Source: Levilactobacillus tongjiangensis (lineage in GTDB: Bacteria > Bacillota > Bacilli > Lactobacillales > Lactobacillaceae). From it: a stretch of 64,000 bases of DNA. Where the stretch lies: assembly GCF_003946345.1 (NCBI RefSeq), contig NZ_RHNY01000011.1:1-64000 (forward strand), written 5' to 3'. Position numbers and translations under genes: made by a program. Numbering within the stretch: the stretch's first letter is position 1; each line of letters starts with the position of its first letter. Below are positions 1,859-46,857 of the stretch, one piece after another. Under the pieces are notes generated by a model. That model did not search any database. It was not told the DNA's origin and worked only from the letters and a program-made list of their open reading frames with translations.

Positions 1859-2095
1859 ACAAAAAAGTCCCCAATGGCCCAAGGCCATCAGGGACGAATT
1901 GAAATCCGCGTTACCACCCAAGTTGTTGTCAATTGACAACCGCTCGTCATTTTTAACGGAATGACCCGCCGATTACTCGGCCGCTCCGCAGCGTAATTCG
2001 TGAAGACGGACGTTCTGACTCCCAGCACCGTCAGATCTCTTGACCGGAGCCGCCCTCACTACTGAACTGTTTCCTAGCTTATGAACTCGATGATA
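1859..2095 (-). promoter_or_regulatory. T-box leader of tyrS (tRNA-Tyr sensing)
   Basis: Read on the minus strand, the T-box core GGGTGGTAACGCGG (about 1905-1919) is followed by a terminator stem (1867-1894 arms, T-run to 1861) just before the tyrS ribosome binding site. The upstream part shows the stem I features expected of a T-box, including an AGTA bulge and a GGTGCTGGGAG apical segment. A TAC triplet at 1995-1993, in GAATTACGC, is positioned as the tyrosine specifier codon; that placement is inference. T-boxes read through the terminator when bound by uncharged cognate tRNA. Confidence 0.9.
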
Positions 2096-43134: not shown

Positions 43135-43995
43135 CTACGTCCAGGTCTGTTGGGCGGCGTAACGTTCCCGGTAAGACTTCGGGGTCATCTGGAAACGCTG
43201 CTTAAACGTCACAAAGAAGTTTTTCTCCGTTCGGAACCCTGTCTTGAGGGCAATACTTTGGATGGACTCCTGGGACGTCATCAACAGCTGTGTCGCTCGT
43301 TCCAAGCGAATTTGCCCGAGATAGGCCTTGGGTGAGATTCCCATGTATTCTTTAAAATACCGGGAAAAATAAACGCTAGAGTAATTGAGCCGCTCCGCTA
43401 ACTCAGCAATCGACACCGCCTGGCTGTACTTTTCCTGAATCTCCGTAACGGCCTGTCGTAGCGGTTGTGGCAGTGGTAGCTGGTCACTATTAACCTGCCC
43501 ATTAACAGTTAGTCTTTTTAACAACTGACCCACCAATTGATATTCCGCACCTAAGCTCGCTAGATAGTCCGCTTGGTCAGCAGGTTCTTCGCCGCCACTC
43601 GCAGCCAACGTGCGGACGGACCGGCCGAGTTCTTGATACGCTTCCTGGCTCAAATCTAAGTCTAGTGGTCCCCAAATTGGTAACTGTTCGTTGCCGACCA
43701 CGTTGCGTAGCCAGGCTGCCGGTAACAGCAGCGTCATGACCTGGTTATCTTCGTCCAAAAAAGTTTCATAACTGTGGACCACTTCTGAATTAATCACGTA
43801 GAGGTGCCCTGGTTGCATCTCGTAAGCTGAGGCCCCAATGTGGACGGTTCCTGGTTGACCTTTGTAGGCAAAGGCCAATTCAACTGCTTGATGCCAATGT
43901 GGTAAGACTAGCTTCAGACCAACAGTTCCGTGTGAAATCACCCGTAACGGCAACGCCATTTTAAAGTTCAAACGCTCATGATAAGGCCGTGGCAT
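43135..43995 (-). CDS. AraC-family regulator with cupin domain
   Basis: A 286-residue regulator: N-terminal cupin-like sensing domain (about 20-110, with HIGASAYEMQPGHLYVI) and a C-terminal double HTH (about 185-283, SIAELAERLNYSSVYFSRYF then SIQSIALKTGFRTEKNFFV). Such proteins usually control sugar utilisation genes. GGGGGA precedes the ATG at 43995. No sugar operon is adjacent; its neighbours are the ABC-F gene and the candidate small RNA, so targets are unknown. Confidence 0.88.
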   Translation of the reverse strand: MPRPYHERLNFKMALPLRVISHGTVGLKLVLPHWHQAVELAFAYKGQPGTVHIGASAYEMQPGHLYVINSEVVHSYETFLDEDNQVMTLLLPAAWLRNVVGNEQLPIWGPLDLDLSQEAYQELGRSVRTLAASGGEEPADQADYLASLGAEYQLVGQLLKRLTVNGQVNSDQLPLPQPLRQAVTEIQEKYSQAVSIAELAERLNYSSVYFSRYFKEYMGISPKAYLGQIRLERATQLLMTSQESIQSIALKTGFRTEKNFFVTFKQRFQMTPKSYRERYAAQQTWT

Positions 43996-44138
43996 GACAG
44001 GTCCCCCATTTCTGTTCGCGGCAAGTAGAAAACGGTTTCATTTCAACGCCTATTAAATAGACCAATTTCTTTCATCTAGCATACCACGTCTACTCGCTAG
44101 ATGGTTAAATTTAGTAATTTAATCATCATATTACGGGA

Positions 44139-44167
44139 TTATGCAATTATTCAATCCCCGGTACAAT
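44139..44167 (+). promoter_or_regulatory. Putative promoter of the small RNA
   Basis: TTATGC (44139-44144), 17-base spacer, TACAAT (44162-44167). The -35 box is weak. Confidence 0.4.
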
Positions 44168-44173
44168 GAACTT

Positions 44174-44513
44174 GCAACATGCGGTGAGGGACTAAAATGT
44201 TTCCCACCAGCCAGGTTGCCCGTAGTCTGCAAAGACCGCAAACGCTCGCTACTTGGTCTTGGGGGGTCAAGCACGAGCGCATTCTTAAATAGCGTGGGCC
44301 GTAACCAGGCTATTTAACCAATTGAAACAGACCGCACTGATCAGGCGTTGGGGGACGACTGATCAACTGAAACTTTCCAACGATTTCATGCGACCGGCGG
44401 TGCTTGCTTGGGGGAGCATTCACTGTTGGCTTCTTCTGGAGAATGATATGGCCATTGGGGGCTACTGGGGGACTAAAAAGGGGTTGCGGCACTTTTGCCG
44501 CAACCCCTTTTTC
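44174..44513 (+). ncRNA. Candidate small RNA with repeated TGGGGG loops
   Basis: About 340 bases with no plausible protein, a promoter-like sequence before it and a very strong terminator at its end. Successive hairpins: 44243-44279 (CGCTCG..CTTG / CAAG..CGAGCG, loop GTCTTGGGGGGT); 44285-44317 (TTAAATAGC/GCTATTTAA, 9 pairs); 44338-44365 (TGATCAG + CGT / ACG + CTGATCA, loop TGGGGG); 44400-44423 (GTG + TGCT / AGCA + CAC, loop TGGGGG). Two further TGGGGG runs lie at 44456-44461 and 44466-44471. It is not RNase P RNA, tmRNA, SRP RNA or 6S RNA as far as I can recognise. Confidence 0.6.
44475..44513 (+). terminator. Very strong terminator of the candidate small RNA
   Basis: Perfect 17-pair stem (44475-44491 with 44496-44512), loop CTTT, five T residues. 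Symmetric, so it may work in both directions. Confidence 0.9.
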
Positions 44514-44543
44514 ATTAGCTTAGTCGTTCAAAACCTTAAAATG

Positions 44544-44735
44544 CCGTCCTCCGGCCGTCAGGGAGGGGGCTGCTGTGGGGACCGGATCGAGCCAAAGTGC
44601 GGTCTCGCTCCTCGACTTGAAACCACGCCCAACCCGCGCGTTTCCAAGCTCGTCCCGTGCTGTAAGCTCGCAGGACCCGAGCTAACACCACCGCCACAGC
44701 AGCCCCCCCTCCCTGACAGCCTCCGGCTACGTTAG
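44544..44735 (-). repeat. Class I folded repeat, copy E
   Basis: Outer arms CCGTCAGGGAGGGGGCTGCTG (up to 44575) and CAGCAGCCCCCCCTCCCTGAC pair almost perfectly, with CTCCGG beyond on both sides. Minus reading keeps GGTGGTGTTAGCTCGG, GAGCTTACAGCACGGGACG, and TCCCCACAGC. The remainder of 44736-44970 holds no gene. Confidence 0.8.
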
Positions 44736-46647: not shown

Positions 46648-46836
46648 AGCCGCAGGACGCCAGGGCTGGCGCCCGCAGTGAAAGTGGCGTTAGTTCGGTG
46701 CTTTTTCCGAGCTTACGCCACGGGACGAGCTTGGAAACACGCGCTCCAGGCGTGGTTTCAAGTCGAGGAGCGAGACCGCCCTTCGGCTCGCTCCGGTCCC
46801 CACAGCGGGCACCAGCCCTGGCGGCCGGAGGCGGCC
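46648..46836 (+). repeat. Class I folded repeat, copy F
   Basis: Outer arms CGCCAGGGCTGGCGCCCGC (46658-46676) and GCGGGCACCAGCCCTGGCG (46805-46823) pair with two mismatches, and GCCGC/GCGGC lies beyond. Core GTGGCGTTAG, GAGCTTACGCCACGGGACG, TTGGAAAC..GTTTCAA and TCCCCACAGC are kept. Ends about 20 bases before the MFS gene stop codon. Confidence 0.8.
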
Positions 46837-46857
46837 ATTCCAGCACCGACCACAACA

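Follow-up and report, generated by a model that had tools for sequence, protein, structure and literature searches.

A putative small RNA of Levilactobacillus that keeps G-rich hairpin loops on changing stems, and two small RNA-like genes with complementary C-rich loops

What could be the role of a small RNA that presents nearly the same G-rich sequence at the tips of several hairpins? A candidate gene for such an RNA (hereafter the G-loop RNA) is located in the 64,000-nucleotide stretch of Levilactobacillus tongjiangensis DNA analysed here (the window; features in Table 1). The original prediction, made from the letters alone, described a promoter-like start, a perfect 17-pair terminator, two hairpins closing identical TGGGGG hexaloops, a third G-loop hairpin and two further TGGGGG runs, and proposed that the loops could sponge C-rich small RNAs (sRNAs). 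The -10 box is present, which makes an RNA start near 44174 plausible, accompanied by a poor -35 box. Both the terminator and the third hairpin (44243–44279) were recovered by direct reading as well as by folding, and the two additional TGGGGG runs are found at 44456–44461 and 44466–44471, between hairpin C and the terminator. The hexaloops stood in part: TGGGGG occupies both tips, but in the minimum free energy (MFE) fold a T-G wobble closes each G-loop and leaves a tetraloop (GGGG in two hairpins, TGGG in the third), the hexaloop being the same hairpin with this wobble opened. The fold energy predicted for the window RNA is -140.7 kcal/mol (z = -5.75 against 100 dinucleotide shuffles), and its G-runs fall in hairpin loops (three) or are unpaired (two) in the predicted fold. 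A small peptide as the product was considered and rejected: ORFs of 58 aa (44141–44317) and 137 aa (44322–44735) overlap the RNA, and the alignments of relatives contain, by eye, many non-triplet gaps.

Table 1. Positions of the G-loop RNA, its parts and the associated elements. Coordinates are those of the window unless a contig or locus is named.
Feature	Position	Strand	Remarks
G-loop small RNA gene	44174–44513	+	several G-loops in a row; both ends deduced from sequence
Promoter region	44100–44173	+	-10 box TACAAT at 44162–44167; weak -35; most BLAST matches in relatives fall here
G-loop hairpin A core	44252–44271	+	inside 44243–44279 of the MFE fold; CTTGGGGGG at tip
Hairpin around GGGCCGTAACC	44285–44317	+	covarying stem; 11 bases of GGGCCGTAACC unchanged in 13 aligned RNAs
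G-loop hairpin B	44338–44365	+	10 pairs, one mismatch; TGGGGG tip; perfectly complementary over 8 nt to the loop regions of C1 and C2
G-loop hairpin C with CTTGGGGGAG	44394–44429 (inner part 44400–44423)	+	TGGGGG tip; perfectly complementary over 9 nt to C1 loop a and to C2
3' motif ATGGCCATTGGGGGCTACTGGGGGA	44448–44472	+	two G5 runs outside the G-loop hairpins
Intrinsic terminator	44475–44512	+	17 pairs, T5
AraC-type regulator gene	43135–43995	-	Pfam HTH_18, HTH_AraC, AraC_binding; divergent from the RNA in 31/31 loci found through it
Shine-Dalgarno region of the AraC-type gene	44002–44008	-	UGGGGGA
C1 sRNA-like gene	G000:C2 17732–17890	-	two C-loop hairpins and terminator
C2 sRNA-like gene	G000:C14 8347–8493	+	one C-loop hairpin and terminator
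C1-type hairpin loci	L229, L230, L240–L269; G000:C1 near 120585 (L275)		pattern match

The original prediction could name no known class for this RNA, and the Rfam searches agree. At the gathering score, the only match in the window was a T-box leader (1887–2084, minus strand); at a relaxed E-value, the best match to the G-loop RNA was an alphaproteobacterial sRNA (E 0.0068; 25.7 bits vs. a gathering score of 45), which is not credible. No report of the G-loop RNA, or of the C1 and C2 genes described below, was found in the literature searched, and the absence is claimed for that literature alone. Two further ideas were dropped on reading the loops, namely sequestration of the ANTAR type, whose targets are hexaloops with A at position 1 and G at position 4, and capture of tRNA 3'-ends by UGG as in T-box logic.

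Distribution was examined through the divergent AraC-type gene. At least 31 loci were found in this way in named genomes (labelled as 29 Levilactobacillus and two Lactobacillus sp.), and all 31 carry a G-loop RNA, with 142–1098 bases between the AraC start and the RNA start. At four loci with gaps of 292–1098 bases (L035, L038, L039, L059), the promoter stays with the RNA. BLAST with 44100–44520 matched 26 of 98 genomes, own included, all of them among the 35 of the genus and mostly in the promoter only. The strict 3' motif (TGGCCATCGGAGNCTTTGGGGGA being the most frequent form of ATGGCCATTGGGGGCTACTGGGGGA among relatives) occurred in 15 of 397 Lactobacillaceae genomes, all Levilactobacillus; because 10 of the 25 genus genomes in that search, our own among them, gave no match to the motif, restriction of the RNA to the genus is likely, not proven. 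In a search of 12 genomes for clustered TTGGGGGA, the own genome gave three matches, two of them inside the G-loop RNA, and the others came from one g61 genome and one g25 genome (backwards motif, one match). Some copies are reduced: that of L. brevis ATCC 14869 is short (194 nt, one G-loop by MFE count), and the 3' G-run is absent from two loci (L055 and L056). Genome comparison shows the putative RNA gene to be conserved in Levilactobacillus, among the food-fermenting lactobacilli.

We asked which parts of the RNA are kept. The 31 loci and the window make a set of 32 RNAs, which as related copies do not represent independent trials. In their MFE folds, GGGG appears in 82 hairpin loops when the closing bases are included (mean 2.56 and minimum 1 per RNA), compared with a mean of 0.09 and a maximum of 1 in 640 shuffles. 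Runs of at least four Gs number 151; 12 lie too close to an end, leaving 139 with full 14-base flanks. The flanks pair at -8 kcal/mol or below around 79 of the 139, compared with a mean of 21.2 (maximum 27) for permuted partners and with 41 of 320 random positions. These 79 strong G-hairpins use 66 distinct 8-nt arms, and two or more of them are present in 30/32 RNAs. The loop type varies among relatives (GGGG, AAGGGG or TGGGGG), and the same loop is seen on stems that differ both between hairpins and between clades. As far as predicted folds can tell, the comparison shows an RNA in which about three G-loops persist although the stems that carry them change. This was the check proposed with the original prediction; loops that are kept while stems change yet stay paired are the opposite of the outcome that would have spoken against it.

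Alignment-based folding was less informative for the G-hairpins. RNAalifold on 13 relatives found nine pairs changed on both sides, seven of which lie in the GGGCCGTAACC hairpin; the G-hairpins are badly aligned there. On the 3' ends it found no common pair, and the hairpin arrangement differs between clades. A long-range helix that it proposed between the 5' end and a 3' GGCCAUCGG was rejected (real mean -8.86 vs. permuted -8.74, nothing beyond conservation). The GGGCCGTAACC hairpin (44285–44317) and TTCCAAC (44375–44381) are invariant among the 13 aligned relatives.

Next, sequences able to pair with the G-loops were sought in the own genome. The complement TCCCCCAA has 87 matches, compared with 27 for the backwards motif. 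This excess would fit loops that pair directly with C-rich mRNA sites, thereby regulating mRNAs, or that serve as Shine-Dalgarno decoys for the anti-Shine-Dalgarno end of 16S rRNA. We consider both unlikely: among 83 distinct contexts examined (three of the 87 places were left out), 59 lie inside ORFs of at least 80 codons, 11 of these on the ORF's own strand, and a decoy would need a G-U pair for G5 to meet CCUCC. The remaining 24 contexts lie outside such ORFs. Three of them belong to two sRNA-like genes, C1 (two contexts) and C2 (one). Conservation was tested for three non-ORF elements; C1 and C2 are genus-wide, and the third, L159, is not.

The predicted loops are CCCCCAA (loop a) and CCCCCA (loop b) in C1 and CCCCCAA in C2; the folds place the C-runs in hairpin loops (z = -7.17 for C1 and -5.63 for C2). 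C1 matched 33/33 genus genomes, and in a second search 35/35, together with matches of about 30 bases in two other genera; its identity within the genus is 84–100% over most of its length. C2 matched 31/33 genus genomes. Among the copies whose loci were fetched and aligned (30 of 34 matches for C1, 30 of 33 for C2), the CUCCCCCAAAG loop region is unchanged in 30/30 for either gene, ACTCCCCCAAAGT is likewise kept in 30/30 of each, and C1 loop b ATCCCCCAAT is kept in 29/30. C2 has a second C-run ahead of its terminator (L094:8455–8465), with CCCCC in 30/30 aligned copies. With E-values up to 1 allowed, Rfam returned a single chance-level match for the loci of C1 and C2 (E 0.43, below its gathering score). 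The RsaE/RoxS model (RF01820) had no match in the own genome, the one genome searched, and its control matched in B. subtilis. A C1 relative scored 26.8 bits with the LhrC model (RF00616; gathering score 110; E 0.15 in a search of two loci) and is not a member.

The match between the two sets of loops is close. At least one perfect 8-nt Watson-Crick site is present in 32/32 G-loop RNAs for C1 loop a, in 32/32 for C2 and in 31/32 for C1 loop b. Over the 32 RNAs, these sites number 60 for C1 loop a, 50 for loop b and 70 for C2, compared with 1, 6 and 1 for reversed targets and, in shuffled RNAs, with means of 4.28, 3.73 and 4.03 (maxima 9, 11 and 8). Sites of 9 nt number 42, 5 and 53 in the same order, and 0, 0 and 0 for reversed targets. 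The window RNA has five sites pairing over 7–9 nt with C1 loop a. UGGGGG is exactly complemented by the CCCCCA of C1 loop b, with a computed duplex energy of -10.7 kcal/mol; CUUGGGGGAG with CUCCCCCAAA reaches -17.1 kcal/mol. By comparison of the predicted loops, CCCCCAA and CCCCCA, within CUCCCCCAAA or AUCCCCCAAU, are shown to be the exact complement of the G-loops. Part of this complementarity could reflect Shine-Dalgarno likeness, because GGGGG is itself a fairly common Shine-Dalgarno variant in the own genome (in the Shine-Dalgarno window of 27 of 353 sampled genes, starts assigned by a simple script), an objection that the reversed-target control answers only in part. Part of the signal lies outside the G-runs: beside the 151 runs, U is found in 75% at -1 and in 74% at -2, and A follows in 75%, which fits what complementarity to CUCCCCCAA requires.

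The layout of repeated identical loops had been read in the original prediction as titration of either an RNA or a protein. Its RNA side is supported, by sequence comparison, by the complements in C1 and C2. On the protein side, repeated G-loops would sequester a UGGGGG-binding protein, as CsrB does CsrA; repeated loops on unrelated stems have this same layout, and the loops resemble the GGGGGA Shine-Dalgarno variant of 21 of the 353 sampled genes. The CsrB motif is GGA in hairpin loops; the G-loop RNA shares the repetition in loops but has runs of G4–G6. A CsrB/RsmZ-type RNA was rejected on the absence of an Rfam family match and of CsrA, the one protein searched for, from all 34 genus genomes (3 of 14 controls matched). 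With the base bias beyond the G-runs matching the demand of C-loop partners, we regard protein titration as unlikely.

We favour a trans-acting sponge RNA that captures the C-loop sRNAs C1 and C2 by loop-loop pairing, to which we give a probability of roughly 0.6 on the sequence comparisons. The G-loop RNA would be expressed, and its loops would capture C1 and C2 by kissing pairing of about 6–9 base pairs, one sponge molecule binding several of them. C1 and C2 probably block G-rich Shine-Dalgarno sites, GGGGGA among them, by base pairing and so prevent translation; the sponge would therefore free the mRNAs that have such sites. The sponging of C-rich sRNAs anticipated by the original prediction has thus gained two plausible clients in the same genome. 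In the opposite direction, C1 and C2 would be the regulators and the G-loop RNA their target, which they might for instance mark for RNase III, and its own output would be a different one. This reading would use the same symmetrical complementarity, and might give a role to the GGGCCGTAACC hairpin, TTCCAAC and TGGCCAT, which the RNA keeps without a role in the sponge model. It is nevertheless improbable: conservation of C1 greatly exceeds that of the G-loop RNA, whose BLAST matches are mostly promoter, C1-type hairpins reach further than the G-loop RNA (see below), and an RNA that changes fast yet retains its loops is more readily understood as the captor.

The closest systems known to us for such capture are RosA of Bacillus subtilis, a sponge RNA with the partners RoxS and FsrA, and RsaI of Staphylococcus aureus; both are described as stand-alone RNAs in which several G-rich regions complement C-rich parts of sRNAs (PMC8216469). 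To the extent of this description, the G-loop RNA is alike: it is stand-alone, it has several G-rich regions, accessible by predicted fold, that are complementary to C-rich sRNA regions, and C-rich candidate partners, C1 and C2, exist as genes in the same genome. It differs in presenting its G-runs as a series of hairpin loops whose stems change, in having other sRNAs as its candidate partners and in lying next to an AraC-type gene. Our best reading is that the G-loop RNA would work like RosA or RsaI; the likeness concerns the way of working, and we make no claim of shared ancestry, the sequences having been compared through Rfam, with no match.

The AraC-type gene is a candidate target. Across the 31 loci, its Shine-Dalgarno region contains GGGGG in 20 (UGGGGG in 15), GGGG in three, a GGGAGG-type sequence in six and GAGGG in two. 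Its mRNA may be one of those freed by the sponge, and the divergent sponge promoter may itself be under the control of the AraC-type protein. Other candidates, with UUGGGGGA ahead of the start, encode a RelA/SpoT-domain protein, an MFS_2 transporter and a polysaccharide deacetylase. By a loose rule, 12 of 82 TTGGGGGA sites precede an ORF of at least 60 codons; this is a candidate list only, and reading TTGGGGGA backwards ahead of start codons gives no fair control, the loci having been chosen by the forward motif. Two leaders are recorded separately. In the first (L091:1415–1472, on G000:C11), CCCCCAATCTTT can pair with AAAGATTGGGGG just upstream of the start of a 363-aa ORF, which has no Pfam match; the leader would carry its own version of this G/C pairing where the Shine-Dalgarno site lies. 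The second (L150:1220–1300; G000:C34, 36126–36185) carries the motif TTGGGGG(A) twice on the same strand, at a spacing of about 45 bases, and is possibly a leader with two C-loop sites.

How far do C-loops extend beyond the sponge? A C1-type hairpin pattern, CATTTTACTCCYCCAAAGTA with two mismatches allowed, was found in 43 of 161 Lactobacillaceae genomes and in 16 of 40 genera (backwards pattern, three matches), with up to four copies per genome; in 26 of the 30 loci that were read, the hairpin is followed by a T-run. The loop is mostly CUCCUCC, the complement of the standard Shine-Dalgarno site. CUCCCCC is found in 7/7 Levilactobacillus genomes and 5/5 g61 genomes of that search, and four of the seven Levilactobacillus genomes, own included, have a CUCCUCC copy as well. 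A narrow pattern test for clustered G-loops in g61 gave one match in five genomes; the C-loop therefore does not appear to depend on a G-loop sponge, since CUCCCCC RNAs occur in g61 with no evident sponge by this narrow test. According to a report on LhrC of Listeria, that multicopy sRNA has redundant CU-rich sites with UCCC in loops and blocks the Shine-Dalgarno site of one demonstrated target, and sRNAs of low-GC Gram-positive bacteria habitually block Shine-Dalgarno sites through UCCC motifs (PMC4132741). The C-rich loops of C1 and C2, and the multicopy occurrence of C1-type hairpins in some genomes, are similar to LhrC as described there, and CUCCUCC as a Shine-Dalgarno complement fits the UCCC-blocking habit. 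The pattern matches suggest C1-type, presumptive anti-Shine-Dalgarno sRNAs in many Lactobacillaceae genera, with no family in the Rfam searches made; they were reached through the complement of the sponge.

These loops suggest a more specific arrangement, which we offer tentatively and consider possible rather than probable. A change of one loop letter, from CUCCUCC to CUCCCCC, would have cut a GGGGGA-type sub-regulon, the AraC-type gene included, from the general one and given it its own multivalent antagonist, a private loop-to-loop channel. Levilactobacillus would have added to it a fast-changing RNA made up of hardly anything but a series of matching UGGGGG kissing loops. If the sponge reading is true, lactobacilli acquire a sponge RNA along with the sRNAs that are its likely clients; moreover, a sponge with little but its loops under selection would be a natural case of multivalent kissing-loop capture.

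Two observations from the own genome are added. The L159 element (L159:1080–1560, plus strand; G000:C42, 59979–60459) is a second putative G-loop RNA, with two strong hairpins that have TTGGGGGA tips and a promoter-like region ahead; it is 92% and 93% alike in two near relatives and otherwise gives short matches, with any match in 7 of 33 genomes, own included. In the window, a G+C-rich repeat forms an inverted pair (44540–44670 and 46708–46839; 86% alike across 133 bases), of which the first copy lies directly 3' of the G-loop RNA, and by eye similar DNA follows the RNA in some relatives (L003, L009).
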